Assembly (NCBI GenBank): GCA_027592755.1
Contig: JAQCLE010000019.1
Span: 1-50,692 of the forward strand
Source of the DNA: Bacteroidota bacterium
GTDB taxonomy: Bacteria; Bacteroidota; Bacteroidia; Cytophagales; Cyclobacteriaceae
DNA: 50,692 nt
Reading direction: 5' to 3'
The notes under the pieces are model-generated. The model saw only the letters and a list, made by a program, of their open reading frames with translations, was not told the DNA's origin and did no database searches. A program made the position numbers and the translations under genes. Position 1 is the stretch's first letter; each line of letters starts with the position of its first letter. Below, in pieces: positions 900 to 47,450 of the stretch.

Positions 900-3671
900 A
901 TGAGAAAATTTTCATTGATGCCTTTTTTTCTTCTAATGCTCATCAATTCGCTATATGCGCAGAACTCAATCATTGAAATTACCTGCAATTATGCCGATAC
1001 TAAATTCCGATTGGTGGCAGAAGATATGGAAAGCAGGTATCCAATAAAGTTTTTCTATTCTTCAGATTGTGATAGCATTCCTGTAAATGCAAGCTTGAAT
1101 AATGCATCGCTGGAATTGTTTCTTCAAACTGTTCATCTGAATACAGGACTCAATTTCTTTCTACACGGAGACAGGAATATCATTACCACCAGGAAGTTTG
1201 AGATCAAAAATAAACTTTCTGAAAATTTCTTTGAAAATAAACCTGGTATAGTTGACACCCTAGCTAATATCTATAACATCCTTGATCAGCTTAGGGAGAT
1301 ATCGGGTGATGATGAAAATAATTCAATTGAAAACCGAATCTTCGAAATAGGCGATATCTCCCAAAGGTATCGCCAGGATGAAGGAACAATTGCCGGCTAC
1401 CTTCGGGAGGCTACCACAGGTGAACCAATCATAGGAGCTTCAATTACCATCAGGGAACCAGTGATTGGCGTTATTACTGATCAGTTTGGCTATTACTCCT
1501 TTACGCTTCCCAAGGGCAGGCATGAACTCTTCTTTAACTCAATTGGAATGAAGAAAACCAAGAGGCAGGTTATGCTCTATAGCGATGGAAATCTGGATGT
1601 AGATATGATAGAGGATATCGTGGCGCTTAAAGAAGTGGTCATCTCCGGAGAAAGAGAAAATGTTGACAACATTCAAACAGGGCTTGCACGGTTGAATATT
1701 CAAAGTATTAAACAGATTCCCACAATACTTGGTGAAGCGGATATCATGAAAATTGCGTTGACGCTCCCCGGTGTTCAATCGGTTGGCGAAGGGGCCACCG
1801 GTTTTAATGTGAGAGGTGGTGCAACTGATCAAAACCTCATCCTCCTTAATGACGTCCCCATTTACAATACCAACCATCTTTTTGGTTTTTTCTCTGCATT
1901 TAATGCAGATGTCATCTCAGAAGCAAACCTCTATAAAAGTGGCATTCAGGCTAACTATGGAGGGCGTCTTTCCTCCGTTTTTGATGTCGCCTTAAGGGAC
2001 GGAAATAAAAAGAATTTCTCAGTAAAAGGTGGCATAAGCCCGGTAACTGGGAGAGTGACTGTGGAAGGTCCCATCAAAAAAGATACAAGTTCTTTTATTG
2101 TTGGACTTCGAAGCACATACTCCGATTGGATACTGGGACTGATGGATAACCCTGATTTAAGAAATAGTACAGGGTCTTTCTCCGATGTCATTGCTAAAGT
2201 GACACATCAGGTCGATTCGAAAAATAGTGTTGTCTTTTCCGGCTACCACAGTCGTGACCGATTCAAGCTCAATTCGGATACACTATATCGCTATTTTAAT
2301 AGCAATATGGCTGTCCAATGGAGACATTCTTTTAACAACAAAATTTACAATGTTACCTCCGCAAGCTTTGCAAATTACCATTATGAGCTTACCAGTGATT
2401 TGAACCCGGCAATTGCTTTTGATTTGAATTACCGGATCAACCAAACCTCCGCAAAGACAGATTTCAATTATTTTCCAAATACAAGGAATAGTATACGGTT
2501 TGGTTTGAGTACGAGCTGGTACAGTTTGAAACCAGGCTCAAAACATCCATTGGGAGCTGAATCGCTAATAGAAGCTGTCGATTTGCAAAAGGAGAATGGT
2601 GTTGAAACTGCGCTCTATTTTGGGAATGAATACGAAGTAAATCCGCTATTATCAGTTTACGGTGGTTTGCGAATGTCCTTCTATAACGCTGTTGGCCCAG
2701 GAAAGAAATTTACATTCCAGGATGGTTTTCCAAAAGAGGTGGATTTTATCAGTGATACGATCACATACAAAGGAGGCAAACTTTTAAAAACTTATGGTGG
2801 CCCGGAATTAAGATTGTCTGCCCGGTATAAACTATCCCAGGATGTATCTGTAAAGTTGAGTTACGATCGAATGAGGCAATATGTGCATATGCTATCCAAT
2901 AGTACTTCTATCTCCCCTACCGATACCTGGCGTCTGAGTGATCAAAGCATCAAACCCCAAATCGGTGACCAGATAGCCACCGGAATTTACAAGACAATCT
3001 TTGGTACAGGAGTGGAAATTTCATTAGAGGGATACTATAAACGACTACAAAATATACTTGAATACAAGGATGGTGCAGACTTGCTGCTCAATGAAGTTTT
3101 AGAAACTGATGTAATAAGGGCCCGTGGCAAATCGTATGGGGTGGAATTTTTACTGAAGAAAAATACAGGCAAGTTCAATGGCTGGCTGAGCTATACTTAT
3201 TCCCGTGCGCTTGTCAAAGCAAATGGAGCGTTTGCTTCTGAACGAATCAACTCTGGAAACTATTTCCCTTCCAGTTTTGACAAACCTCATAACCTCGTTG
3301 TCATTACCAATTACAAGTTTAACCGTCGAATCAATGCTTCTTTGAACTTGTCCTATTCAACTGGCAGACCTATAACTTACCCTTTGACTAAATATAAATT
3401 CAATGACCAACCATATGTCTTTTACACCGATCGAAACAAGTTTAGAATTTCCAATTATTTCCGAATGGATTTTGGTATCAACTTCGAAGGAAATCATAAA
3501 GTAAAGAAACTAGCACATGGATCTTGGTCTTTCTCCATTTATAATCTTACAGGACGAGATAACGCATATTCTGTATTCTTCAGAAGTGAGGAGGGCCAGA
3601 TCAAGGGTTACAAGTTATCCATCTTTGCCAATCCTATTCCAACGCTCACCTATAATTTTCACTTTAGATGA
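900..3671 (+). CDS. TonB-dependent receptor with STN and CarboxypepD_reg domains
   Basis: This 923-aa outer-membrane receptor has a signal peptide (about 1-20, ending LYAQ), an STN-like secretin/TonB short domain (about 25-100), and a linker. A carboxypeptidase-regulatory-like beta-sandwich follows (about 165-245, GTIAGYLREATTGEPIIGA). Next come a plug domain (about 265-370, with FNVRGGATDQNLILLNDVPIY) and a 22-strand-type barrel to the end. Such receptors import substrates too large for porins using TonB/ExbBD energy. An STN domain usually points to anti-sigma-factor signalling, but no FecR/sigma pair is adjacent. The last four bases overlap the DUF4249 gene (ATGA), so the two are translationally coupled. 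No SusD partner is present; DUF4249 occupies that position. The substrate cannot be told from sequence. Confidence 0.93.
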   Translation: MRKFSLMPFFLLMLINSLYAQNSIIEITCNYADTKFRLVAEDMESRYPIKFFYSSDCDSIPVNASLNNASLELFLQTVHLNTGLNFFLHGDRNIITTRKFEIKNKLSENFFENKPGIVDTLANIYNILDQLREISGDDENNSIENRIFEIGDISQRYRQDEGTIAGYLREATTGEPIIGASITIREPVIGVITDQFGYYSFTLPKGRHELFFNSIGMKKTKRQVMLYSDGNLDVDMIEDIVALKEVVISGERENVDNIQTGLARLNIQSIKQIPTILGEADIMKIALTLPGVQSVGEGATGFNVRGGATDQNLILLNDVPIYNTNHLFGFFSAFNADVISEANLYKSGIQANYGGRLSSVFDVALRDGNKKNFSVKGGISPVTGRVTVEGPIKKDTSSFIVGLRSTYSDWILGLMDNPDLRNSTGSFSDVIAKVTHQVDSKNSVVFSGYHSRDRFKLNSDTLYRYFNSNMAVQWRHSFNNKIYNVTSASFANYHYELTSDLNPAIAFDLNYRINQTSAKTDFNYFPNTRNSIRFGLSTSWYSLKPGSKHPLGAESLIEAVDLQKENGVETALYFGNEYEVNPLLSVYGGLRMSFYNAVGPGKKFTFQDGFPKEVDFISDTITYKGGKLLKTYGGPELRLSARYKLSQDVSVKLSYDRMRQYVHMLSNSTSISPTDTWRLSDQSIKPQIGDQIATGIYKTIFGTGVEISLEGYYKRLQNILEYKDGADLLLNEVLETDVIRARGKSYGVEFLLKKNTGKFNGWLSYTYSRALVKANGAFASERINSGNYFPSSFDKPHNLVVITNYKFNRRINASLNLSYSTGRPITYPLTKYKFNDQPYVFYTDRNKFRISNYFRMDFGINFEGNHKVKKLAHGSWSFSIYNLTGRDNAYSVFFRSEEGQIKGYKLSIFANPIPTLTYNFHFR

Positions 3672-4852
3672 GACAGGGAATACTTATTTTTCTTTCATTA
3701 ATCTGTGCATTCAACTTTCTAAATTGCATCGAAGAGTTTTATCCCAAAATACCTGATACTGATAACAATTTTTTGATTGTCGAAGGTCAAATAACAGATA
3801 AAGCCGAACCATACTTCGTGAAACTCTCCAGAAGTCTTCCTATCAACGCCACAGATGAATCGCCCGTTTCAGGTGCGAATGTTCAAATAGAAGAAGAAGG
3901 TGCTGTATACCTACTTACAGATCAGGGCGGTGGGCTTTACAGTACAAACGAATTCACTGGTCAGCCTGACCACGATTATAGATTATCAATCACCCTCGAT
4001 GGAAACCAATATCAATCTTCATGGCAGACTTTAAGGAAGTCATCTGAAATTGACAGCATCTATTACCGGGTAGATATGGAAGAAACTGAAGACCCGGACG
4101 TGGACATAAGAGGTATCCAATGGTATGTTGACAGTCATGGGGAAGCCTCAGGAGCCAGATTGTATCGATATGAATGGGATGAGACCTGGCAAATTGGTGT
4201 AAATTGGCCCACCTTTTATTACTATTTAGGCAACGATTTAACAGAGCTTATTCCAGCTGAAGAGCGACGTAATACCTGCTGGATGAATAGCCCAAACAGC
4301 GAGATAAACCTAACATCCACAGCACTATTGTCTGATAATGTTGTGTCAGAGCATCCCTTATTTTTCACCCGGGACCAGGAAGAAAAGCTAACAATAAAAT
4401 ATAGTGTTATTGTAAGGCAGTATGCCCTTGATGAGGAAGAACATGAATTCTGGAGAACCCTGAGGGAATCTAATGTAGAAGGGGGAAACCTTTTCGATAA
4501 ACAGCCTGCAAGTGTCGTGGGTAACGTCAAAAATGTGTCAAGACCAGATGAAACCGTTTTAGGATACTTCTCTGCCAATGGTGTAAAAGAACAACGGAAG
4601 TTTGTTATTAGAAGAGAATTACCAAACGGTTTTGGTTTTCCGAAAAGATGCGCACTAGATACCATCTTAAAAGCTGATCAAATGGATTATGAAGGTTACG
4701 TTTCTAAAGAAATAAACCGGGGACTACTTTTATACAACTTAATTTTATCTCCTTTTGGTCCAGCAGTTATTGGAGCTCTTTTAGCAGAACCCCAATGTGC
4801 TGACTGCGTAATCAAAGGTGGCAACGAACAAATACCTGATTTCTGGGAATAG
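3668..4852 (+). CDS. DUF4249 family lipoprotein, partner of the TonB receptor
   Basis: The 394-aa protein starts with a short hydrophobic signal ending at a lipidation cysteine (Cys20, FNFLNC). It is followed by the typical DUF4249 opening (FLIVEGQITDKAEPYFVKLSRS) and a beta-sandwich region. DUF4249 genes are commonly found next to TonB receptors in Bacteroidetes, and the protein is probably a surface or periplasmic accessory of the receptor. The molecular function of the family is unknown. The start codon overlaps the receptor stop by 4 bases. The ending QCADCVIKGG...PDFWE is kept almost unchanged in the decayed paralogue at 7800-8977, so this short Cys-x2-Cys tail is probably functional. 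Confidence 0.9.
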   Translation: MRQGILIFLSLICAFNFLNCIEEFYPKIPDTDNNFLIVEGQITDKAEPYFVKLSRSLPINATDESPVSGANVQIEEEGAVYLLTDQGGGLYSTNEFTGQPDHDYRLSITLDGNQYQSSWQTLRKSSEIDSIYYRVDMEETEDPDVDIRGIQWYVDSHGEASGARLYRYEWDETWQIGVNWPTFYYYLGNDLTELIPAEERRNTCWMNSPNSEINLTSTALLSDNVVSEHPLFFTRDQEEKLTIKYSVIVRQYALDEEEHEFWRTLRESNVEGGNLFDKQPASVVGNVKNVSRPDETVLGYFSANGVKEQRKFVIRRELPNGFGFPKRCALDTILKADQMDYEGYVSKEINRGLLLYNLILSPFGPAVIGALLAEPQCADCVIKGGNEQIPDFWE

Positions 4853-7799: not shown

Positions 7800-8977
7800 A
7801 TGAGAAAGGGAATACTTATTCTTCTTTCATTAATCTGTGCCTTCAACTTTCTGAGTTGCGTCGAAGAGTTTTATCCTAATATACCTGATAGCGGCGTCAG
7901 TTTTTTGATGGTAGAGGGTCAAATAACCGATAAAGCTGAGCCATACTTTGTAAAATCATCCAGAAGTCTCCCTATCAGGGCAAACGATGAATCACCTGTT
8001 TCTGGTGCAAATATTCAAATTGAGGAAGAAGGCGCTGTATACGTACTTTCGGATCAGGGAGACGGGCTTTACAGTACCAACAAATTCACAGGTCAGGCAA
8101 ACCACAATTATCGATTATCCATTACTCTTGATGGAAACCATTATCAGCATCATGGCAGACTTTGAGGACAACATCTGAAATTAACAGCATTTATTACCGG
8201 TTAAATGAGGAAGAATCCAAGGGCATGAACACCCGAGGCATTCAATGGTACGTTGACAGTCACGGTGATAATTCAGGAGCCAGATTGTATCGATACGAAT
8301 GAGATGAGACCTGGCAAATTGGGGTGAATTGGCCCACTTTTTATAACTATTTAGGTAACGATTTAGTCGAGCCAATTCCAGTTGAAAATCAACACAATAC
8401 CTGTTGGGTGAATAATCCGGCCAGTGAGATAAACCTGTTCTCGGCAGCAATATTATCAGAAAATGTTGTCTCAGAACATCCCTTGTTTTTTGCTGGGGAT
8501 CAGGAAGAAAGAATGACAATAAAATATAGTTTCATAGTAAGGCAGTATGCTCTTGAAGAAGATGAATATGAATTTTGGAGAACCCTTCGGGAATCTAATG
8601 TAGAAGGGGGTAATCTATTCGATAAACAGCCTGCAAGCGTTGTCGGGAACATCAAAAATGTTTCAAACCCTGATGAAATCATTTTAAATTACTTCTCCGC
8701 GAATGGCGTAACAGAACAGAGGGTGTTTGTCACTAAAAATGAATTACCAAAGGATTTTGGTTCAACCATGAAGTGCGAACTGGACAGCATCTTAAAATCT
8801 GAGGAGAGGAATTATAAAGAACTTGTTCTCCGAAAAATGAATGAAGGATTGATTTTTTACGATTTAATTATGCATCCTTTCTTTCCTATTGTTTATGGGT
8901 TGATATTATCAGAACCAATTTGCAGTGATTGTGTATTCAAAGGCGGAGACGCCCAAAAACCTGATTTCTGGGAATAA
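7800..8977 (+). pseudogene. Decayed second copy of the DUF4249 lipoprotein gene
   Basis: Across nearly its full length the sequence matches the DUF4249 gene at 3668-4852, from MRKGILILLSLICAFNFLSC through the C-terminal CSDCVFKGGDAQKPDFWE. A one-base deletion near 8146-8152 shifts the frame. Further on, TGA at 8300-8302 replaces the Trp codon of the intact copy (YEWDE becomes YE-stop). The open frame restarts at an internal ATG (8324) and runs to 8977 without the lipoprotein signal. Two independent lesions make a real pseudogene more likely than a read error. Only 7 bases separate it from the previous remnant. Confidence 0.9.
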
Positions 8978-9055: not shown

Positions 9056-10396
9056 ATGAAACCATCCCTCCTCTTAAACATTATAATTTATATATTAGTC
9101 TTCACAGCTTGCGAGAAATTGCCAGATTCAAATCGCAAACCCAATGTCATCATTATTTACACCGATGACCAGGGCTCAATTGATATGAATTGCTATGGTG
9201 CATTTGATCTCTATACTCCTAATATGGATCTTCTTGCAGCCACGGGAGTCCGCTTTACCCAATTCTATGCTGCAGCTGCCGTTTGTTCTCCTTCGCGAGC
9301 AGCGCTACTAACAGGAAAAACACCCTTGGCGGCCGGCGCACCTGGAAATCTCCCATCCATAAAAGGTCGACCAGAAATGTCCACTGATCAGGTCACAATA
9401 GCTGAGGTATTTAAAGAAAATGGATACAGGACCGGCCATATTGGTAAATGGCACCTTGGCTATAGCAAAGAAACCATGCCCCTTGGACAGGGTTTTGACT
9501 ATTCCTTTGGTCACATGGGTGGATGCATCGATAATTACTCTCATTTCTTCTACTGGAACGGCCCCAATGTTCATGACCTCTGGGAAAATGGTGTTGAAGT
9601 ATGGCGGGAAGGTGAGTATTTCCAGGATTTGCTGGCTGAAAAAGTCAATGATTTTTTAGAAGAGAATCAGGACAGCTCCTTCTTCTTATATTATCCTGTT
9701 AACCTGCCACATTACCCTTTGCAAGGCGCTGCCAAATGGCGGGATTATTACAAAGACCTTGAAAGTCCCCGAAACATGTACGCTGCTGCGGTTTCAACAG
9801 TAGACGAACACATTGGCATTTTACTATCCAAACTTGACGAGCTTGGTTTACGGGAGAATACAATCATTATTTTGCAATCAGATCACGGTCATTCAATGGA
9901 AGTGAGAACTTTTAACGGTGGTGGCAACTCAGGTCCCTACCGCGGTGCAAAATTTTCATTGTTCGAAGGAGGTATCCGTGTACCTGCAATTATCAGCTGG
10001 CCCGGTAAAATTCCACAAAATGAAGTCAGGGATCAAATGGCAGTCAATGTCGACTGGTTTCCAACACTTCTGGACCTATGTGGCGTTAAATTCAAGGAAA
10101 ATCAATTTGAGGGCAAGAGTCTAAATCTCGTAATACAGGATAACAGCCCTTCTCCCCATGAGGTATTTTGGTGGTACACCAATAAGAACCAATGGGCGGT
10201 TAGACAGGGCGATTGGAAGTTGCTCAAGAATCCAATTGACCCATCAAACAAATCACCACTAGAGGAGAAGGATTCTGTTTTTCTTGTAAATCTTCAAAGT
10301 GATCCCGGTGAACTGAACAACCTGGCTTCTGAATTTCCAAAGAAGGTTGACCAATTGACGGAAGTTTACACCGATTGGTATGTAATGTTGGAATAA
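9056..10396 (+). CDS. Sulfatase (arylsulfatase-type lipoprotein)
   Basis: This 446-aa sulfatase has a lipoprotein signal (VFTAC, Cys19). The N-terminal metal-binding motif is YTDDQG (Asp37, Asp38). The modification motif CSPSRAALLTG starts at Cys77, the residue turned into formylglycine by a maturase. GKWHLG follows at about 131-136. The second metal motif, QSDHGHSME, comes later. It should cleave sulfate esters, probably on polysaccharides, at the outer membrane or periplasm. The maturase is not in this window. It stands alone between the decayed cassette and the cold-shock gene. Another sulfatase is at 46038-47450, but the two are not close copies. Substrate unknown. Confidence 0.92.
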   Translation: MKPSLLLNIIIYILVFTACEKLPDSNRKPNVIIIYTDDQGSIDMNCYGAFDLYTPNMDLLAATGVRFTQFYAAAAVCSPSRAALLTGKTPLAAGAPGNLPSIKGRPEMSTDQVTIAEVFKENGYRTGHIGKWHLGYSKETMPLGQGFDYSFGHMGGCIDNYSHFFYWNGPNVHDLWENGVEVWREGEYFQDLLAEKVNDFLEENQDSSFFLYYPVNLPHYPLQGAAKWRDYYKDLESPRNMYAAAVSTVDEHIGILLSKLDELGLRENTIIILQSDHGHSMEVRTFNGGGNSGPYRGAKFSLFEGGIRVPAIISWPGKIPQNEVRDQMAVNVDWFPTLLDLCGVKFKENQFEGKSLNLVIQDNSPSPHEVFWWYTNKNQWAVRQGDWKLLKNPIDPSNKSPLEEKDSVFLVNLQSDPGELNNLASEFPKKVDQLTEVYTDWYVMLE

Positions 10397-16152: not shown

Positions 16153-17709
16153 CTAATTCAACTTCACCACACCAACTGTTCTTCGAGTGCTCTCACTTTG
16201 CATTAGCACATAATAATTCCCAGCTGGTAGTTCACGCGTGTTCCACTGTAAAGATTGATTGCCATGAGCCAGAACACCAGAAAAAATATGACCTACCGGT
16301 CGACCAAGCATATCGATCGCTTCAATCTTCATGGGGGCTCCACTTGAAATGAAATCTATTGTTGCCATTTCAGCTACAGGATTCGGATAAACCTTCAACC
16401 GGCTTTGTTCAACATCTGGCCTGACAGCGGTAATGACGTCTTCCCCTATGATAGGCAGCGTACTGAAATCGCTCATCAACACGCTGGCCCTGTCTTGTAA
16501 TTGCATGCCAAACCATTGCTCAAGAACAGAACCATAAACCTGGCGAAAATCAAATTGCCATGGAAGGTTATCTTTAAAAGTCGCAGCGGCTGGTATTACC
16601 GGGTTGGTGCCCAGGACACCCTTCTCCACTTGATTACCAAAAACAAAAAGTGGTGCCGCAGCGCCGTGATCCGTGCCCAGGCTGGCGTTTGATATAATTC
16701 TTCTACCAAATTCAGAAAAAGTCATCCCCAGAACATTATCACCAAGACCCATGAATTCGATATCATTCATGAAAGCTTTCACAGCATTGTCAAGATCGGC
16801 AAGCAAAGAGGCATGTTCCCCAAGTGTATGATCTGATGCCATCACCTGGGCGGCATGCGTATCAAAACCGCCAAGACGAACCATGTAAAGTGGTGTTTTT
16901 AAGCCACCGGAAATTAAACGGGCTACAATTTTCAACTGTTGAGCAAGCTCATTGTTATCCGGATAATGTTGCTGAGACGTTACCTTGTTAGCAGCTTGCT
17001 TCACTACCTCACCATACAACTGGGATTGTCGGGCAGTGAGCCTGATATGCTTCAATTTATCTCCGGCATAGGTATCGGGTGATTCTTCTTCCACATTATC
17101 TATTAGTTCGTGAAAAGAGGTGGGATCTTTTAAGACCATGCTCATTGATGTGGCGGGGCCTTGAAAAAGCATTGAAGAGCCATAGCCAATTTCAATTGAC
17201 AAGGGATCTGGGTCTGTGGCATTCGGAAATCCTTCCGGATAATCAGGGTACTCGTGATTGAGATACCTCCCGGGCCAGCCACTGCTTACCAATTGATCTG
17301 AATCAGATCCACTCATCCAAATATCCGTGGAACGAAAATGTGAGTAGTTCTGCTCTGGGTATCCTACCGATTGAATTATTTTCAATTTGCCTTCTTTGTA
17401 CAAAGTGCTGAACCCATCCAATGCGGGATGAAATGCAAGTTCGGTTCCTGATATTGGTAGTAGTTTGTTCTCCGGAAGGATAACATGGGGTCGTACAAGA
17501 TTGAGGGCTGATAGCTGATCCAGAGGGATAACAGTATTCAAACCATCATTTCCACCCTGGAGATAAATCAAAACAAGCACTTTGCCTGATTCTGCCTGGG
17601 CACGAAGAAATGAAGAGAAACGTCGGGAAGATGTAAAGCCAAATGACCCCATGACAGCCGGTGCGGCTAAGGCATGTGATGCTCGATGTAAAAATGTTCT
17701 TCGCTTCAT
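16153..17709 (-). CDS. DUF1501 protein with Tat-type signal and T9SS sorting domain
   Basis: The 518-aa protein begins KRRTFLHRASHALAAPAV, a twin-arginine-type signal. It then shows the DUF1501 core (LIYLQGGNDGLNTVIPLD, FSEFGRRI, GTDHGAA), a relative of alkaline-phosphatase/sulfatase folds. The last 80 residues are a type A T9SS sorting domain (KVYPNPV..., IDMLGRPV, LPAGNYYVLM). It should therefore cross the inner membrane folded and then be secreted or attached to the surface by T9SS. DUF1501 genes are regularly paired with DUF1800 genes, as here (2 bases downstream of its stop). The pair's activity is unknown. Confidence 0.9.
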   Translation of the reverse strand: MKRRTFLHRASHALAAPAVMGSFGFTSSRRFSSFLRAQAESGKVLVLIYLQGGNDGLNTVIPLDQLSALNLVRPHVILPENKLLPISGTELAFHPALDGFSTLYKEGKLKIIQSVGYPEQNYSHFRSTDIWMSGSDSDQLVSSGWPGRYLNHEYPDYPEGFPNATDPDPLSIEIGYGSSMLFQGPATSMSMVLKDPTSFHELIDNVEEESPDTYAGDKLKHIRLTARQSQLYGEVVKQAANKVTSQQHYPDNNELAQQLKIVARLISGGLKTPLYMVRLGGFDTHAAQVMASDHTLGEHASLLADLDNAVKAFMNDIEFMGLGDNVLGMTFSEFGRRIISNASLGTDHGAAAPLFVFGNQVEKGVLGTNPVIPAAATFKDNLPWQFDFRQVYGSVLEQWFGMQLQDRASVLMSDFSTLPIIGEDVITAVRPDVEQSRLKVYPNPVAEMATIDFISSGAPMKIEAIDMLGRPVGHIFSGVLAHGNQSLQWNTRELPAGNYYVLMQSESTRRTVGVVKLN

Positions 17710-17711
17710 GA

Positions 17712-19442
17712 TTACATTAAATGATATTCCCCTAATTGAAGCATTTGTTTGAATGTTGCCTGCAACCTACTTTGTACAATCGACTTTTTATTAGGATCAC
17801 TAGGACTGGCTTTAAAGTCATTCCAGGCCGTTGTCCAGTATGCGTCATTCAATTGTCCTGAGAGTAGTACCGATTTTAAGTTGTTCATCACTGTATCGGA
17901 GAGATCAAGGCCCAAAAGCAATGTTGCAGACTCTTTTAGCAGTTCGCTCGGATTTGATGGGTCATCAAGTTTATATACAAAACCAATGATATCGGCATTG
18001 ATCTTTATCTCACTCGATATCCAGAAGCCCCAATAGAGAAGTGAATCGGTAGTTATCGCACGCTTGGTGATAGTATCCGTTGTAATCCAGGCTTTGTCGT
18101 ATTGTGGAGCCTGGTAATAGGGTGTCCATCCAGCTACATTGGGGGGATCACCCATTTCCATCCCAAGGTTGGCCATGTGCCAATGCATTGACCGCCTGAC
18201 TATATAATTTAATGGAAGTTCGTTTTCGTTAGACGATTTGACATCAAAGGTCTTCCAGAGGCCCAAAAGATGTTCAGCAGGACTTTTGATCAACACACCT
18301 TTGTTGAGTGGATCATAAAAATGCTCACTTGTAAATAAAGCTCTTAAAACCGGGGTGATTTCATAATCATTAGAGCGAAATATTTCTGCCAGTGGTTCGA
18401 TAACATTCTGCTCAACGGTTTCCGAAATATCATTGTAAACAAAAAACGAATACAATCTTCTACAGATGTACTTAGACGTCTCTTCATGGCCGATGATCAT
18501 ATCCAACAAGTCATCCAATTCATTTGCTCCATTACCTGTTATAATTTTATTGTTATAAAAGGAAGAAAATTGCTTATCTGTATCATCGTGCCTGTCTGCA
18601 TAAAAACCGGCTTTGAAAGTGCCAGCATTGTCGTATGGCGTCCAGTCGATACCCCAACCTGTCAATACCCTTGCAGCAGCCTGCACATCACCTTCAGTAT
18701 ACTTTGATCCGGGCCCCTTTCCAATGCAAAACAACTCCTGCAATTCCCGCCCAAAGTTTTCATCGGGTGCTCCTTTCGCATTCTTGGTGCCATTAAGAAA
18801 GATCAACATAGAGGGATCAAGTGTCAACTCCCTGATAAGTGACTTGTAATTACCAAGGGCATTTCTTCGCAACATGTCGTAATAATGGAAGCTTGCTTTG
18901 GCAATGTAGACGTCCCACACTTTGGTCACCAGCAGGTTATTCCAGAACAAAATCATTTTTTCATGGATGTTGGTTTCCTGCCTGATTATATTTTTTATCT
19001 GCCATGTCTTTAGGGAAACGACACGATAGCCTTCTTTATCACCACCATGAGGTGCCTGTAGCCATGATTCCCCCAACTTAACATTGGGATCCACGGCATC
19101 CGCCTCAATACCATTGTAATCATTCACGGGTGGTGGCGGTGGCTCGGATGGTGTCAAAATTTTGTCAACGGCTTCACCAGCTGATAGCCCTTTAAAATGA
19201 TCGAGCTCATATTTTTTAATACCAAAAAGCGTTCTGGCAAGTAAGTGCCTCGCCTGGGCTTCTTCCCATGGGCCGGTATATGGTTCCAGCCCTGAGGTTA
19301 CCTCCCTCGTCCTTGTGCGTGGGGTGGCATCATGTTGCGCCGAGGTTTTTGGTGACTCCAGGATCATCGGCTTTACCTTGCGAAACTTTTCAATCCATTG
19401 AAAACGTTCCTTCGAACGTGGATCCTGATCATCAATTGGCAT
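17712..19442 (-). CDS. DUF1800 family protein
   Basis: This 576-aa protein matches DUF1800: LLARTLFGIKKYELD, a proline run (EPPPPPVND), MILFWNNLLVTKVWD, GRELQELFCIG and DPPNVAGWTPY. The family has no proven activity but nearly always travels with DUF1501 proteins. The first 25 residues are charged and no signal peptide is seen, unlike its partner. Either it stays inside the cell or an upstream start was missed. The upstream DNA gives no obvious extension. A perfect -7 element lies 26 bases before the ATG. Transcription continues into the DUF1501 gene with a 2-base gap. Confidence 0.9.
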   Translation of the reverse strand: MPIDDQDPRSKERFQWIEKFRKVKPMILESPKTSAQHDATPRTRTREVTSGLEPYTGPWEEAQARHLLARTLFGIKKYELDHFKGLSAGEAVDKILTPSEPPPPPVNDYNGIEADAVDPNVKLGESWLQAPHGGDKEGYRVVSLKTWQIKNIIRQETNIHEKMILFWNNLLVTKVWDVYIAKASFHYYDMLRRNALGNYKSLIRELTLDPSMLIFLNGTKNAKGAPDENFGRELQELFCIGKGPGSKYTEGDVQAAARVLTGWGIDWTPYDNAGTFKAGFYADRHDDTDKQFSSFYNNKIITGNGANELDDLLDMIIGHEETSKYICRRLYSFFVYNDISETVEQNVIEPLAEIFRSNDYEITPVLRALFTSEHFYDPLNKGVLIKSPAEHLLGLWKTFDVKSSNENELPLNYIVRRSMHWHMANLGMEMGDPPNVAGWTPYYQAPQYDKAWITTDTITKRAITTDSLLYWGFWISSEIKINADIIGFVYKLDDPSNPSELLKESATLLLGLDLSDTVMNNLKSVLLSGQLNDAYWTTAWNDFKASPSDPNKKSIVQSRLQATFKQMLQLGEYHLM

Positions 19443-20972: not shown

Positions 20973-23057
20973 CTACAACACCTCAAACAGTCCCTTTTCC
21001 GGATCAATGATAAAGCTTAAGATAGTGGACTGATCCCCGTCATTGATTAACTCGATTCTGTGATGATCAGTCTCCATGCGATTCTCATTCGAACCATAAG
21101 ATATGAGCCAGGTGACACGCCACTCATTGCTTGAGTGCTTCAATAATATCATGGGGGTGTCTTCAAACTCAAAACCAGGCCCAATACCGTAAACAAGTTC
21201 CATCCGTCGATTGCTGTACATTGAAATCCTCTGACCAGAATTCAAACCAGGACCTTCAATATCCACATTAAATGTAAAGCCTGAAGATACACCTTTGGGG
21301 TTTTTAATAAAACTGTAAGGATATCCTTCTTTAAGTTCGTAATCCGGTCCATCTGGGTCATTTTTGAAACTCCCCCTTGTGTGGTAAGCAAGCTCCATTT
21401 CTTTAGGCACATCCGATTTGACAACATCTGAAATAAGGATTGTCGATTCATCAGGGAGGCAAAGGGTGCGGTAAAACACTACCCCATCATAAAGCTCGTT
21501 AGCTTTTAATTGGGTAAAAGGAATGCCCTTTTCAATCCCTGAATTCAAGAGCTCTCCACCATTAAAGGCCTGGTTTTCTCCATTGATAATTAACGTGTTA
21601 TGTGAAAGAGAATTCTTGTACCAGTTGTGGTATGCCGGTGCCCCATAATCAGCAATCCCCGGATCAATGGCGGTATAATCTCCATTGTACCAGGTAACAA
21701 AACTCAGTGCATCCGGATGGGCATGACCACCGGCATTTTTATCGTATTGGACCAAAGTCCAGAAGTTTTTCCTGTAAAGGATGTCAATCCAGGTTCCCGC
21801 GTAGCTGGCGGTATTGGATTCCAGCAGCAATGGTTTTTCATCATATTGTTCATCACTATAAAACCATTCATAATTGAATATCAGATTCTCATTGCTGCCT
21901 ACCGACTCCAGTATCTTTTTGTATTCGGGGTCTTTAAACCTGGAATAGGCATAGAAATAAAGCCTCTTGAAATTAGGCAGATAGATTGGTCTGGCATCAT
22001 TAAGCCTGGGCATATCACCATTAGGTGGTGAAAAACGGAGTGGTGCATCGAACAACTTTTTGATGGTCAGGGACCTACCCTGAGCGCCGTGGTTTTTTAC
22101 GGCCTCAGCAAGGATGTGGATAGGCTCGATGGCATAAAAATGATAAGATGGAGAGCGTTCATACCACAATCCATCGGAGGTTAATCCATTGTCCAGATTC
22201 GTATTGAATCCATGTTCAGGATCGTTTACAGCCAAATTCACCAGGCTGTCGTTACCAATCAAATAACCTGTGAGGCCAATGGCAGCATTATTCCAGCATT
22301 GTATATTGTGAACACCGCGTCTGTTCCTGGTAATAGCACTCATTGCTGGCATCAGAATGTTATCTTCTATGGATTGTCTTCGCTCCGCCTCTAAATCATC
22401 CCAAATCAGGTCCAACCCTTGCAGAATTCTGATCAACCATACCGACTCATCCAGGGACTGAACTGAAACCTTGCCTACTCCAGTGCCTTTGTCGAAATCC
22501 GGTTGATGATGTATGTTGCGATAGGGGTACTTTGGATATTGAATAATATAGTGATTCATCACGTCATTGCAATAATCCAGGTATTTCTTTTCATTGGTAA
22601 GTTGGTGCATCAGCGCCGAAGCAAACAAGGCGTTGGAATAAAACCCATGAATCTGTGTTGAAATGACAACACCATTGTAATCCTCAGAAGGGATGTCCGG
22701 ATTTCCAAGATAAACCTGTGAGCTGTCAAAATTGTAATGCTCCCATTGGAAAGGGCCAATCTGCTTACCCGTGATCATCCTCCTGCCTTCAACAGGATCA
22801 GCGTAGTAGTGATACCAGTTACCTCCACGATCAGGCACATTCACTTTAAGATTTATAATCGAATCTGTGTAATGCTTTAGATTGGCAAAGTGGTTGAACT
22901 GAAAATGAGAAGGATCAATGCTTTTCTTGAGTTTATTAATGTCATTATTAGTAAGAAATAATGTCAATTCATATTTAGCATCTTTTTTATTGCAGGAAGG
23001 CAGCATTAAAAAGGAGAAGGCTATAAACAGGTAAACATTGAAATTATTTTTGGACAT
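20973..23057 (-). CDS. Heparinase II/III-family polysaccharide lyase (lipoprotein)
   Basis: The 694-aa protein has a lipoprotein signal (LPSC, Cys22). An alpha/alpha-toroid N-terminal domain follows, with HNIQCWNNAAIGLTGY and LWYERSPSYHFYA carrying the Asn/His and Tyr residues used in catalysis by relatives. The C-terminal heparinase_II_III beta domain begins near residue 410 (NAGGHAHPDALSF, SHNTLIINGENQ). It should depolymerise uronic-acid polysaccharides such as alginate or glycosaminoglycan-like chains. The neighbouring alginate-lyase-family gene supports an alginate-like target. The exact PL family (15, 17, 21 or other) cannot be fixed by eye. Confidence 0.85.
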   Translation of the reverse strand: MSKNNFNVYLFIAFSFLMLPSCNKKDAKYELTLFLTNNDINKLKKSIDPSHFQFNHFANLKHYTDSIINLKVNVPDRGGNWYHYYADPVEGRRMITGKQIGPFQWEHYNFDSSQVYLGNPDIPSEDYNGVVISTQIHGFYSNALFASALMHQLTNEKKYLDYCNDVMNHYIIQYPKYPYRNIHHQPDFDKGTGVGKVSVQSLDESVWLIRILQGLDLIWDDLEAERRQSIEDNILMPAMSAITRNRRGVHNIQCWNNAAIGLTGYLIGNDSLVNLAVNDPEHGFNTNLDNGLTSDGLWYERSPSYHFYAIEPIHILAEAVKNHGAQGRSLTIKKLFDAPLRFSPPNGDMPRLNDARPIYLPNFKRLYFYAYSRFKDPEYKKILESVGSNENLIFNYEWFYSDEQYDEKPLLLESNTASYAGTWIDILYRKNFWTLVQYDKNAGGHAHPDALSFVTWYNGDYTAIDPGIADYGAPAYHNWYKNSLSHNTLIINGENQAFNGGELLNSGIEKGIPFTQLKANELYDGVVFYRTLCLPDESTILISDVVKSDVPKEMELAYHTRGSFKNDPDGPDYELKEGYPYSFIKNPKGVSSGFTFNVDIEGPGLNSGQRISMYSNRRMELVYGIGPGFEFEDTPMILLKHSSNEWRVTWLISYGSNENRMETDHHRIELINDGDQSTILSFIIDPEKGLFEVL

Positions 23058-42627: not shown

Positions 42628-45600
42628 ATGTTTCACTCTCTCAATCGGCAATTTCTTATTGCCTTTTCTTTGACAATAGCTATTCTCTCATGTCAAAAAC
42701 CCAAACCACTTTACAATCACATAGTGATCAGGGAAGATTCAATCCAGGGGCCTGTTCGGGCCAGGGAAATAATGGATAACACAGCCATTTCTCTTGCCGA
42801 TGGTATTAAAATGGAACTTTGGGCTACCGATTCCCTGGCGCCTGACCCGATTGCAATGTCAATTGATGACTATGGAAGGGTTTATTTAACAAGAACGAAT
42901 CGACAGAAACATTCAGAATTTGATATCCGCGGTCATAGAGATTGGATGACAGCTTCAATTGCGTTACAGTCAGCAGAAGAACGAAGGGAGTTTCTTCATA
43001 AAACGTTTTCTCCTGAAAATAGTGCTCAGAATGAATGGTTGACAGACCTGAACAAGGATGGAATACATGATTGGAAGGATTTGGCTGTTGAAGAAGAGGA
43101 AGTTTGGCAGATAGAAGATCTTAATCAAGATGGACTAGCTGATGTTTCTACAAGGATTTTAAGCGATTTCCATGATGAAGTGACTGATGTCGCCGGTGCC
43201 TTACTCATCAGGAGAAACGATATGTTCGTTGGAGTTGGTCCAGACATGTGGCGATTGGAAGACACAGATGGAGACGGCCGTGTGGACATTAAAAAATCTA
43301 TCAGTCATGGCTATGCTGTACATATAGGATTTGGAGGACATGGTATGTCCGGAGTTATTGAAGGACCCGACGGTAAAATTTATTGGGGGATTGGGGACAT
43401 TGGAGCCAACCTTACTGCCTTAGATGGTTCAATTCATAAATACCCAAATCAGGGTGTTCTGGTCAGATCAAATCCTGATGGAAGCAATTTTGAAGTCTTC
43501 GCAGCCGGATTGAGAAATACTCATGAATTTGTCTTCGATGAATATGGAAACATTATCGGTGCAGACAATGACGGCGATCACCCGGGAGAAAGTGAGCGAT
43601 TGGTGCACATTGTCGAAGGATCAGATGCAGGTTGGAGGTCAAATTGGCAATATGGGAAATACACGGATTCTCGAAACAACGAATACAAAGTCTGGATGGA
43701 GGAACGACTCTTTGTTCCAAGATGGGAAGGTCAGGCAGCTTATATTATGCCACCAATTACCAACTATCACAATGGTCCGACAGGCATGGTTTATAACCCC
43801 GGCACCACCCTTGGATCAGCGTGGAAGAACAAGTTCTTTCTTGTAGAATTCGTCGGGAATCCAAGCCGATCACATATCTGGTCTTTCAGTCTCAAACCCA
43901 AAGGAGCCTCCTTCAATCTTAACGAAGACATCGATCTTATGAGCGGTGTCTTAACAACCGGAATTCGGTTTGGACCTGACGGAGCCCTTTATGCCGCAGA
44001 CTGGGTCAATGGATGGGATACAAAAAATTACGGACGCGTTTGGAGAATCGATGTAACCGATGATAAAAATGATCTTGCTGAAATCAGAAAGGAAACCAAA
44101 GAACTCATGGTACTCGATTATAAAGACCAATCCACAGACAGGCTGTACGAATTGCTTTTCCATGAAGACATGCGCATAAGGCTCAAGGCCCAGTATGAAC
44201 TCGCCAACCGGAATGATGATCGTACTTTGAGTAAGGCAATTGGTCAAACTGATAACCTACTGGCCAGAATTCATGGTATCTGGGGACTTGGTCAAATCCT
44301 GGCTTATGATCCTGCTCAGATAGAACAACTTGTATCCCTCCTTGGTGATAATGACCCCGAAATAATTACTCAGGCAGCCAAGGTTATTGGGGATTTGAAA
44401 TACGCTATAGCCGGAAATTCACTTCTTCCTTTGCTTGAACATCAAAACCCAAGAACACAGTTTTACGCGGCACAAGCACTCGGTCGAATAAAAATGATTG
44501 AGGCAGTCGATCCTCTTATTAAGATGATTGAATCCAATAACGATGAAGATCTCTACATCCGACATGCTGGAGTATTGGCACTTTCAAGAATTGGCTTAGT
44601 TGACCCTATCGTTGCGCTTTCAGATCATTCAAGTTTTGCATTGAGAGTCGCAGCCGTCCTTGTATTAAGGAGAATGGCCAATGAAAAAGTCGCTGTTTTT
44701 CTAAAAGATCAAGACGAATACATAGTTACGGAGGCCGCCAGAGCAATAAATGATGACTTCTCCATAGAAAAAGCACTACCGGCACTTGCCGCAACATTGA
44801 GCGAAGAAAGGTTCAGATCCGAGGCCCTCCTAAGAAGAGCCATCAATGCAGCACTCCGTGTCGGAGGAGGTGAGCAATTGGACTTGCTCATCGCTTTTGC
44901 ACAGCGTCCAGGTCTCGATCCAGTCTTGAAAGGTGAAGCCATTGCAACGCTGGCAACCTGGCCAAATCCTTCAGTCCTGGATCGCGTGGATGGCCGGTAC
45001 CGTGGTGAAATCAAAAGGGATGTCAATGAAATCAGACCCAAAATCACTCCGATGATCGCTCAGTTGCTTAAAAGTCTTGATGCTGAAGTAGTTTCGGCAA
45101 CCATCACAGCTATTGCCGAACTTGGAATTTCGGATTACAATGATCAATTGGTAATCATGGCAAAAAGCCACAAGAATCCTGACGTGAGATCATCTGCCCT
45201 GAAATACCTTGTTAATGCCGGTGCTGGTAATTCGACGCAGATCATCAGGGCAGGACTTGCAGATCAGTCCGAAATCGTCAGATCCACAGCAGTGAGCTAT
45301 CTCGCCGATTTGGAAACCAACGCTGAAACATTGAGCCAGATCACCGCACCTATACTTTCTCGGGGCACTATTAGTGAACAACAGGAATTAGTTAAGGTTT
45401 TAGGCACAATGCCACTGAAAAAATCAGAATCAACACTAAGCACTTTGGCTGATCAATTGATAAGTGGGAAACTATCAGGGGGCATTACGCTTGAGTTGAT
45501 CGAAGCGATTGAAGCCTCGGGTTCGGAAAATCTGGCTTCCAGGATTGAATCCATCAGATCATCCGATCCTAATAGTGTTGATTTCTATAAGGAAGCGCTT

Positions 45601-46023
45601 TATGGCGGTGATAGAAGACAAGGTGGTCGATATGTTTACACCAACTCAACAGGACAATGTACCCGATGCCATGCACTGAATGAAGGTGGAGCTAACGTTG
45701 GCCCTCCTTTAATGAACATAGGCAATACACACTCAAGGGAACAAATTCTTGAAGCACTTGTCAATCCAAGTGCAAGAATTTCACCAGGCTATGGTAATGT
45801 GACTTTGACATTGGCAGATGGACAAACAGTAACCGGCATCCTGGAGGAAGAAACAAATGAACGCCTTATAATAAGAACCAATGATGCGGAACCGCTGGAA
45901 GTCCCGGTTTCAAGAATCAGTTCAAGGACAAATCTTCCATCCAGCATGCCTCCGATGGGACAGATCATGTCAAGAAGAGAATTACGGGATGTCATAGAGT
46001 TTTTGGTTAATTTGAAGCAGTAA
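42628..46023 (+). CDS. Large lipoprotein: beta-propeller, HEAT repeats and cytochrome c motif
   Basis: This 1131-aa protein has a lipoprotein signal (AILSC, Cys22). The N-terminal half is a sorbosone/glucose-dehydrogenase-like propeller (GYAVHIGFGGHGMSGVIEGP, GLRNTHEFVFDEYGN, GADNDGDHPGESER) carrying three EF-hand-like loops (DLNKDGIHD, DLNQDGLAD, DTDGDGRVD). The middle (about 490-960) consists of HEAT-type alpha repeats. Near the end a single heme-binding CTRCH (Cys1011, Cys1014, His1015) is followed by a cytochrome-c-like domain. This matches the large PVC-type heme-binding/membrane-bound dehydrogenase family. It probably acts in the periplasm or on the surface in oxidation of sugars. The sulfatase gene starts 14 bases later, so they are co-transcribed. 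Confidence 0.88.
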   Translation: MFHSLNRQFLIAFSLTIAILSCQKPKPLYNHIVIREDSIQGPVRAREIMDNTAISLADGIKMELWATDSLAPDPIAMSIDDYGRVYLTRTNRQKHSEFDIRGHRDWMTASIALQSAEERREFLHKTFSPENSAQNEWLTDLNKDGIHDWKDLAVEEEEVWQIEDLNQDGLADVSTRILSDFHDEVTDVAGALLIRRNDMFVGVGPDMWRLEDTDGDGRVDIKKSISHGYAVHIGFGGHGMSGVIEGPDGKIYWGIGDIGANLTALDGSIHKYPNQGVLVRSNPDGSNFEVFAAGLRNTHEFVFDEYGNIIGADNDGDHPGESERLVHIVEGSDAGWRSNWQYGKYTDSRNNEYKVWMEERLFVPRWEGQAAYIMPPITNYHNGPTGMVYNPGTTLGSAWKNKFFLVEFVGNPSRSHIWSFSLKPKGASFNLNEDIDLMSGVLTTGIRFGPDGALYAADWVNGWDTKNYGRVWRIDVTDDKNDLAEIRKETKELMVLDYKDQSTDRLYELLFHEDMRIRLKAQYELANRNDDRTLSKAIGQTDNLLARIHGIWGLGQILAYDPAQIEQLVSLLGDNDPEIITQAAKVIGDLKYAIAGNSLLPLLEHQNPRTQFYAAQALGRIKMIEAVDPLIKMIESNNDEDLYIRHAGVLALSRIGLVDPIVALSDHSSFALRVAAVLVLRRMANEKVAVFLKDQDEYIVTEAARAINDDFSIEKALPALAATLSEERFRSEALLRRAINAALRVGGGEQLDLLIAFAQRPGLDPVLKGEAIATLATWPNPSVLDRVDGRYRGEIKRDVNEIRPKITPMIAQLLKSLDAEVVSATITAIAELGISDYNDQLVIMAKSHKNPDVRSSALKYLVNAGAGNSTQIIRAGLADQSEIVRSTAVSYLADLETNAETLSQITAPILSRGTISEQQELVKVLGTMPLKKSESTLSTLADQLISGKLSGGITLELIEAIEASGSENLASRIESIRSSDPNSVDFYKEALYGGDRRQGGRYVYTNSTGQCTRCHALNEGGANVGPPLMNIGNTHSREQILEALVNPSARISPGYGNVTLTLADGQTVTGILEEETNERLIIRTNDAEPLEVPVSRISSRTNLPSSMPPMGQIMSRRELRDVIEFLVNLKQ

Positions 46024-46037
46024 CCAACTACTGACCT

Positions 46038-47450
46038 ATGAAATACGCAGCATGTTTGCTTGGTATGTTCTTACTATTTAGTTGCACTGAAGAAAAGCAG
46101 GAGCGTAAACCCAACATCATTTTTATCCTGGCAGATGACCTGGGCTATGGCGACCTTGGATGCTACGGCCAAAAGCAAATCCTTACACCATTTCTAGACC
46201 AAATGGCGAAGGAGGGCATCCTGTTTACCAATCACTATGCAGGAAGTACTGTATGTGCGCCATCCCGAAGCGCACTGATTACGGGCAAACATACCGGCCA
46301 GACAAGGGTAAGAGGGAATGCCAAAGTTCCCCTCTTGGCAGAAGACACCACTGTGGCAGAATTAATGAAGCAAGCCGGGTATGTAACTGGAATGTTTGGT
46401 AAATGGGGTCTTGGTGAAGTCACATCCACTGGCCAGCCAAATGACCAGGGCTTTGACGAGTTTGTCGGTTATCTGAGCCAGGTAAGGGCACACAATGCCT
46501 ACCCGGAATGGATTTGGCAAAATAAGGATACTGTGAAACTTGACAATGTGGTGAAATACGTCACCGAAACTTATGCTGCAGGAATTGGTGGTATAGCCAC
46601 TGAAAAGAACACACATACACAGAATATCTTCACCGCAAAAGCCATTGAGTTTATCGAGGCTAAAAAGGATTCAGCTTTTTTTCTCTATGTGCCTTATACC
46701 CTACCCCACGCCAACAACGAAGCCCGGCATTTTGATGCCATTGGTATGGAAACCCCGAAATTGTTGGGTTACGATACCATTGCCAGTTGGAATGATACGG
46801 AAAAAGCCTTTGCTTCTGCGGTCACCTGTCTTGACAGCGATGTGGGTAAAATTCTATCCAAACTCAAAGAATTAAACCTTAATGAAAATACGCTGGTCAT
46901 ATTTACATCCGACAATGGACCACACCATGAGGGAGGCCACGATGACAAATTCTTCAACAGCTCTGGACTACTTCGAGGCACCAAGCGAGATGTTTATGAT
47001 GGTGGCTTCCGGGAACCCTTTATAGCCAGATGGCCAGGTAAAATACAGCCTGGAACGACATCCGATCATACCTCCGCTTTCTGGGATTTTATGCCTACCG
47101 CCTGTGAACTGGCAGGTGTAAAACCGCCTTCAGACATCAATGGTAAATCATACCTCAATGCTTTGTTGGGCAAACCACAGGAGAAACATGATTACCTCTA
47201 TTGGGAGTTTTATGAACAAGGTGGCAAACAGGCAGTGAGGCTTGACCAGTGGAAAGGAGTGCGATTAGGCGTTCAGGCTAATCCAGACGCTCCAATTGAA
47301 TTGTATGATGTGGTCGCCGACCCAGGAGAAACCAACAATGTTGCGGACCAGAACCCGGAAGTCGTGAGGAGGATCAATGGGATTATGGTTGAGGCGCATG
47401 TTTTCTCTCCGGATTTCAATTTTGAATTTGAGAATAAAGCAGTGCAATGA
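46038..47450 (+). CDS. Arylsulfatase-type sulfatase (lipoprotein)
   Basis: This 470-aa sulfatase has a lipoprotein signal (LFSC, Cys16), FILADDLGYGD (Asp33, Asp34) for the metal, and the maturation motif CAPSRSALITG (Cys73 becomes formylglycine). GKWGLG and FTSDNGPHHEGG follow. The GKWGLG form, with Gly in place of the usual His, is a known variant in some subfamilies. It should remove sulfate groups from glycans or small sulfate esters outside the cytoplasm. It is co-transcribed with the heme-propeller lipoprotein 14 bases upstream. It is not a close copy of the sulfatase at 9056. Confidence 0.92.
   Translation: MKYAACLLGMFLLFSCTEEKQERKPNIIFILADDLGYGDLGCYGQKQILTPFLDQMAKEGILFTNHYAGSTVCAPSRSALITGKHTGQTRVRGNAKVPLLAEDTTVAELMKQAGYVTGMFGKWGLGEVTSTGQPNDQGFDEFVGYLSQVRAHNAYPEWIWQNKDTVKLDNVVKYVTETYAAGIGGIATEKNTHTQNIFTAKAIEFIEAKKDSAFFLYVPYTLPHANNEARHFDAIGMETPKLLGYDTIASWNDTEKAFASAVTCLDSDVGKILSKLKELNLNENTLVIFTSDNGPHHEGGHDDKFFNSSGLLRGTKRDVYDGGFREPFIARWPGKIQPGTTSDHTSAFWDFMPTACELAGVKPPSDINGKSYLNALLGKPQEKHDYLYWEFYEQGGKQAVRLDQWKGVRLGVQANPDAPIELYDVVADPGETNNVADQNPEVVRRINGIMVEAHVFSPDFNFEFENKAVQ

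Follow-up and report, generated by a model that had tools for sequence, protein, structure and literature searches.

A divergent branch of heme-binding propeller lipoproteins in Bacteroidota, with a candidate role in sugar oxidation

Here we describe positions 42628–47450 of a 50,692-nucleotide stretch of DNA (the window; contig JAQCLE010000019.1, assembly GCA_027592755.1) from a Bacteroidota bacterium of the family Cyclobacteriaceae, where the gene for a large lipoprotein with a propeller, HEAT repeats and a heme domain is followed by a sulfatase gene. The large protein is an uncharacterized branch of a known cytochrome family and not half of a fixed two-part system. We put at roughly 55% the probability that it is a membrane-anchored extracytoplasmic sugar or glycoside dehydrogenase with its own heme as electron acceptor, the sulfatase being a lineage-specific companion. 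An initial annotation of this DNA had proposed that the two proteins desulfate and oxidize the same sugar. The oxidation part of that idea is plausible and is better grounded than the first reading could show, since the propeller is of a sugar-oxidizing type, keeps its active-site residues and is joined to a heme that could accept electrons, whereas no fixed coupling to a sulfatase was found.

A divergent branch of a known cytochrome family

Both open reading frames (ORFs) lie on the forward strand, 14 bases apart, and each product (1131 and 470 amino acids) has a lipobox legible in its sequence (ILSC, Cys22, in the large protein; LFSC, Cys16, in the sulfatase), as the initial annotation had described. 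Its outline of the domains also held, namely a sugar-dehydrogenase-like propeller, three EF-hand-like loops, HEAT repeats, a single CTRCH heme site and a downstream sulfatase, in a genome that is rich in sulfatases (55 PF00884 rows). Conservation, in the list below and throughout, refers to an alignment of the branch with 77 rows, which include tandem copies and one fragment.

42628–46023 (+): lipoprotein of 1131 amino acids, divergent branch of the PVC-type heme-binding CxxCH proteins (profile matches, AlphaFold model)
42628–42693 (+): lipoprotein signal peptide with Cys22 as the lipidated residue (sequence; Cys at this column in 74 of 77 rows)
42796–44070 (+): six-bladed propeller with sugar dehydrogenase fold, residues 57–481 (AlphaFold model, fold comparison, branch alignment)
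43045–43296 (+): stretch of three EF-hand-like loops, whose first residues are D140, D164 and D212, residues 140–223 (sequence reading, conservation)
44077–45555 (+): HEAT-type helical solenoid, approximately residues 484–976 (Pfam match, PDB search, AlphaFold model)
45613–46008 (+): c-type heme domain, residues 996–1127 (TIGR02603, model, Kustd1711 match, branch alignment)
46038–47450 (+): S1-type sulfatase lipoprotein with CAPSR (C73), DDLGYGD and SDNGPH (PF00884, PDB matches, motif)

The G+C fraction is 0.443 for the large gene, 0.462 for the sulfatase gene and 0.403 for the window. Promoter and terminator scans of the locus gave no signal above the shuffle level.

In the large protein, the TIGR02603 heme domain scores 89.5 bits (curated cut-off 68.15), DUF7133 scores 93.5 bits (cut-off 27) and HEAT_2 matches at E = 9.3e-28. 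The TIGR02604 N-terminal domain reaches 119.2 bits (2.7e-34), just short of its curated cut-off of 122.2; among four orthologues, L015 (122.5), L053 and L066 (both 128.6) lie above this cut-off and L010 (116.0) lies below. Because its TIGR02604 score is under the cut-off, the large protein is best placed, by its sequence, as a divergent sister branch of the PVC (Planctomycetes–Verrucomicrobia–Chlamydiae)-type heme-binding CxxCH proteins (NCBIfam TIGR02604 plus TIGR02603) and not as a TIGR02604 member, a refinement of the kinship that the initial annotation had seen. The propeller, the HEAT repeats and the C-terminal heme domain are common to both groups, whereas the Arg of the WFRP motif in the paralogues is Leu or Gln in the window branch. 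Among the papers listed by searches of the open-licence literature, no study of this branch was found, and the one functional claim for the propeller-HEAT-heme architecture was a β-galactosidase assay, to which we return below.

The propeller carries the residues of sugar dehydrogenases

The fold was compared using an AlphaFold model built from an alignment of 54 cytochromes (mean pLDDT 89.0, pTM 0.86), with Foldseek matches re-examined using VIA-align. Residues 57–481 superpose on the pyrroloquinoline quinone (PQQ)-dependent sugar dehydrogenase 3a9g with Z = 29.6 and a root-mean-square deviation of 2.6 over 296 residues. Further matches were 2ism (Z = 28.0), 7cgz (27.8), the AA12 enzyme 6i1q (26.9) and the soluble glucose dehydrogenase (sGDH) 1qbi (25.0), and all of the top 12 rows were glucose, aldose-sugar or AA12 dehydrogenases (Z = 29.6–25.0 across the top 11). 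A phmmer search of the whole protein against the PDB returned chiefly designed alphaRep repeats, and designed Pizza propellers ranked top when profile A2 was run against structures.

Profile A3, which covers the middle propeller blades of 24 family members, finds the sGDH structure 1c9u at E = 1.1e-9, and in its alignment H144 pairs with the family's His and R228-N229 with its Arg-Asn; PMC6881810 and PMC6881789 name these sGDH residues as catalytic or quinone-binding. Their equivalents in the window protein, H238, R296 and N297, are each kept in 77/77 rows, as are D313, D315, D317 and E321; 75 of those rows have N314, and many residues of loop 333–359 are invariant. N314-x-x-D317 may represent the N-x-x-D calcium loop of AA12. 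In the EF-hand-like stretch, D140, N142, D144, D148 and D164 are conserved in at least 97% of rows. The window protein thus has the fold, the catalytic His and the Arg-Asn pair of six-bladed PQQ sugar dehydrogenases (sGDH, Asd) and AA12 pyranose dehydrogenases, from which it differs in its fused solenoid and c-type heme and, as judged by motif spacing, in the loss of the C-terminal PQQ-binding Arg.

The heme domain and a possible route for electrons

The only CxxCH motif in the large protein is CTRCH at residues 1011–1015, and C1011, C1014, H1015 and M1107 occur in all 76 rows that have letters at those columns. The C-terminal domain matches the diheme cytochrome Kustd1711 of Kuenenia stuttgartiensis (7zs0) at E = 1.5e-16, and in this match M1107 pairs with M292, the distal heme ligand; strands 1057–1102 would correspond to the β "nose" insert of Kustd1711. 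All three marks of a Kustd1711-type domain (CxxCH, distal Met and β insert) can therefore be recognized, and both proteins share a His/Met heme; the window protein differs in having a single heme and in its fusion to a propeller and solenoid. According to PMC11791136, Kustd1711 is a diheme protein with a putative role in electron transfer; its hemes have potentials near +350 mV, tuned by calcium and the nose insert. In four small genomes (2.7–3.0 Mb; L181–L184), the match to the large protein stops near residue 1057, and the β insert and C-terminal end diverge.

As we envision it, the substrate would be oxidized in the propeller pocket with H238 as the base, R296-N297 would hold a quinone or another acceptor and calcium would occupy the D313–D317 loop. 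The His/Met heme of the same protein would then receive the electrons and hand them on to the respiratory chain. The HEAT solenoid could set the geometry of this transfer or bind a partner. Because of the gene neighborhood of the wider family, the product would most likely be a keto-sugar of the type supplied to 3-keto-disaccharide hydrolases.

Gene neighborhoods of the wider family

Eight genomes, selected because they hold an orthologue, contain 65 TIGR02603 domains at E ≤ 1e-22. Of the 56 regions around their other TIGR02603 genes (L101–L156), 53 were analyzed; L128, L131 and L133 were missed by the rule used to recognize cytochromes, and L128 and L133 hold a PF06439 row. Nine of the 53 cytochrome genes are directly beside a gene for a 3-keto-disaccharide hydrolase, against 0.34 expected if there is one gene per 1150 bases, and 12 have one within two genes; all nine adjacent regions also contain a PF06439 row. 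On the same assumption, a sulfatase gene is adjacent at 1/53 (0.48 expected), in genomes with 205 PF00884 rows (E ≤ 1e-15) and 148 PF06439 rows (E ≤ 1e-8). Neighbor families were identified with profiles built for this analysis and checked against Pfam on examples. The genome of the window has 25 PF06439 rows, and one of its nine analyzed paralogues (L079, Pfam-checked) is beside a 3-keto-disaccharide hydrolase gene; the tenth region, L085, was left out since the cytochrome rule missed it.

In Caulobacter, LacABC together with DUF1080 (PF06439) allows use of lactose through 3-ketolactose (PMC9007349). One possibility, which we raise tentatively, is that propeller-HEAT-heme cytochromes are the counterpart of LacABC in Bacteroidota and the PVC group, acting as extracytoplasmic glycoside oxidases that feed 3-keto-disaccharide hydrolases. 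The window branch would then use a cofactor other than PQQ or transfer electrons directly to heme, and sulfatases, epimerases and GFO/IDH/MocA proteins would be swapped as the glycan changes. Should these cytochromes prove to be glycoside dehydrogenases, oxidative glycan breakdown would gain an abundant and unexplained protein family; the sulfatase pairing by itself adds little.

The window's own branch was surveyed at 57 loci (L010–L015 replaced by the longer L095–L100; L024, L026, L027 and L028 left out; 103 adjacent genes visible) and at 28 further loci, among which L161 has miscalled genes and L170 duplicates the L053 genome. GFO/IDH/MocA genes are adjacent at 5/57 loci, three of which share one gene order, and xylose-isomerase-like and N-acetylglucosamine (GlcNAc)-epimerase genes are also present. 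Tandem cytochrome copies adjoin members of one gene family at L018, L019, L021, L050, L051, L052, L054 and L055; the member at L051 is a GlcNAc 2-epimerase by Pfam, and in Cyclobacterium the tandem copies come after a GlcNAc 2-epimerase family gene. In Algoriphagus and relatives (L020, L022, L056, L058, L059, L173, L174 and L179), a PIG-L-like gene, Pfam-checked for L020, is immediately 3′ of the cytochrome gene. A 3-keto-disaccharide hydrolase gene is the second gene at L062, L064 and L186.

Cofactor and alternative activities of the propeller

Several observations weigh against sugar oxidation by the window protein. The fold is shared by propellers that do not oxidize: HHIP scores Z = 24.2, on a par with the lower rows for sGDH, and lactonases match at Z of approximately 21. 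Where a C-terminal Arg would bind PQQ, 75/77 rows have Leu and two have Gln, and no PqqE was found above the cut-off in the genome (best score 71.2, cut-off 381.35). A scan of eight ORFs around the window gene detected no PF06439 hydrolase, and at branch loci an adjacent 3-keto-disaccharide hydrolase was seen only at L053 and L068 (of 57) and L185 (of 28), compared with four loci for sulfatases, such that neither gene dominates and the 3-keto signal within the branch is weak. Last, a protein with the same three domains has been reported to be a hydrolase.

How the Arg replacement should be read depends on its position, which was set by spacing (eight residues ahead of the last PDG); by this spacing it matches R406 of sGDH and the Arg of WFRP in many paralogues, and another basic residue could substitute. 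In known enzymes the PQQ carboxylates are bound by Arg (R406/R408 in sGDH, R621 in CcPDH). A PqqB-like match was considered as a sign of a PQQ cluster and rejected (121.7, cut-off 245); its neighbor resembles mnmE by eye. PQQ can come from outside the cell (PMC6881810). Since the PQQ Arg is replaced and no PqqE scores above the cut-off, we doubt that this is a conventional PQQ enzyme; the propeller pocket looks catalytic, and PQQ as its cofactor is unproven. The initial annotation had named missing cofactor-binding residues as evidence against its proposal, and here the record is divided, with the C-terminal Arg gone and the His and Arg-Asn retained.

Could the propeller instead cleave glycosides or lactones, as a hydrolase or lyase that carries an electron-transfer tail? 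The lactonase matches and the lost PQQ Arg are compatible with this, as is the report on Lac161_ORF7, a protein assigned to Verrucomicrobia whose published description lists TIGR02604, HEAT_2 and TIGR02603 and which, reported as a β-galactosidase, released glucose from lactose with a Km of 1.8 mM (PMC5342196). The expression host for Lac161_ORF7 was E. coli BL21(DE3)pLysS and the assay was read out with glucose oxidase, and three unrelated proteins in the same study gave Km values of 1.8–3.2 mM (PMC5342196). A hydrolase or lyase would also leave the retained sugar-dehydrogenase His and Arg-Asn, and above all the heme domain, hard to explain, and we regard this alternative as improbable. E. coli BL21 is lacZ+. 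Carry-over of host LacZ may have contributed to the assay, and glucose release could reflect oxidation of lactose to a labile keto-sugar. An oxidase that makes labile keto-lactose would fit both the LacABC/DUF1080 route and the Lac161_ORF7 result, as would LacZ carry-over for the latter.

A still less probable alternative is that the propeller has lost its catalytic function, leaving a cytochrome that serves in binding or as a scaffold. The propeller of HHIP serves in binding, so such a role is within reach of the fold, and the replaced PQQ Arg and the lack of a PqqE above the cut-off would be expected. However, H238, R296, N297, D313, D315 and D317 in 77/77 rows, together with the fixed residues of loop 333–359, point to an active site. 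Sugar or glycoside dehydrogenation remains the reading that we prefer.

The sulfatase is not a fixed partner

The downstream protein matches PF00884 at E = 2.4e-59 and has the formylglycine motif CxPSR as CAPSR at residue 73, so that both features of S1 sulfatases are present. Its closest relatives in the PDB are the S1 sulfatases 7an1 (E = 6.3e-101) and 7ana (3.1e-97). As the genome has six PF03781 rows, activation of the sulfatase is plausible, with the proviso that not all PF03781 proteins are activating enzymes.

That the sulfatase and the cytochrome process a single sulfated sugar in succession at the cell surface, as the initial annotation had suggested, now seems unlikely. The 14-base gap, the shared strand, the two lipoboxes and the abundance of sulfatases in the genome are all consistent with such a module, and across the 57 branch loci sulfatases make up 3/103 adjacent genes and 1/322 distant genes (p = 0.046, treating genes as independent; 2/102 and p = 0.15 with the query locus excluded). 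However, the three loci differ in layout: the sulfatase follows the cytochrome gene in the window, is divergent at L100 and lies upstream on the same strand at L035. The 28 further loci add one divergent case (L174), bringing the total to 4/85 loci in three arrangements, and the four sulfatases are of different lineages, with mutual identities of 24%–32%. Among the 53 other cytochromes of the eight genomes, the single adjacent sulfatase contrasts with the excess of sulfatase over hydrolase rows there. Charge behind the lipidated Cys matters for surface export in Bacteroidota, and the residues at this position differ between the two proteins (QKPKP in the large protein, TEEKQE in the sulfatase), such that a common compartment is not assured.

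The sulfatase's own relatives tell a similar story. In 291 genomes of the order, its nearest relatives comprise seven matches in five other genomes (E ≤ 1e-140, 49%–56% identity; two fall in one repeated stretch), and no cytochrome orthologue lies within approximately 8 kb on either side of any of them. One relative, 55% identical, adjoins a gene for a planctomycete-type PSCyt1/PSCyt2/PSD1 cytochrome (L089:8314-13304) and another adjoins a gene for a two-CxxCH protein (L093), neighbors that would suit a link between such sulfatases and cytochromes. Within the window's own genome, approximately 0.33 sulfatase-cytochrome neighbors are expected by chance (from 12 cytochrome genes and 50 sulfatases, rounded from 17 and 55 rows). 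No sulfatase is within two genes of the nine analyzed paralogues; two sulfatases are approximately 5 kb from the paralogue of L082.

We therefore rejected a conserved sulfatase-cytochrome pair, given adjacency at 4/85 loci with divergent sulfatases and differing arrangements. This pair of families was not found in the other genomes searched, a uniqueness that the initial annotation itself had set down as counting against a module. At most, the two genes form a lineage-specific operon; they are probably co-transcribed, and the sulfatase may remove sulfate from the substrate of the large protein.

Relatives and descent

Counting the genome of the window, the large protein has matches in 16/59 near-relative genomes at E ≤ 1e-60 and in 28/395 genomes of the phylum at E ≤ 1e-150. 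A search of public-genome contigs yielded 41 loci, from Cytophagales, Saprospiraceae, Flagellimonas and Rhodohalobacter and, outside Bacteroidota, Gilvimarinus; none of the 41 has a PVC title, and no planctomycete is among the plasmid matches listed. In a tree made by a quick method without bootstrap, which includes long-branch paralogues and omits PVC homologues, the window protein joins a same-family genome and a Bacteroidia metagenome-assembled genome (MAG) with a support of 97. By identity, it comes closest to a Cyclobacteriaceae MAG (72% over 741 columns); identity to six same-genome paralogues in alignment A1 is 19%–23%.

The initial annotation had also suggested that the gene may have been transferred. 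With no strong sign in either the tree, from which PVC homologues are absent, or the GC content, recent gain from outside is not indicated and is rejected for now. At L067:8001-11397, the orthologue is broken into two overlapping frames, likely by a frameshift or assembly error.

Other features of the window

A second sulfatase is encoded at 9056–10396 (PF00884, 2.9e-62). Upstream of it are a TonB-plug/CarboxypepD protein (900–3671) and two DUF4249 matches (3668–4852 and 8324–8977). On the reverse strand, a DUF1501 protein with a type IX secretion tail adjoins a DUF1800 protein (16153–19442), and a Heparinase II/III-like and alginate-lyase-like protein at 20973–23057 may be a polysaccharide lyase.

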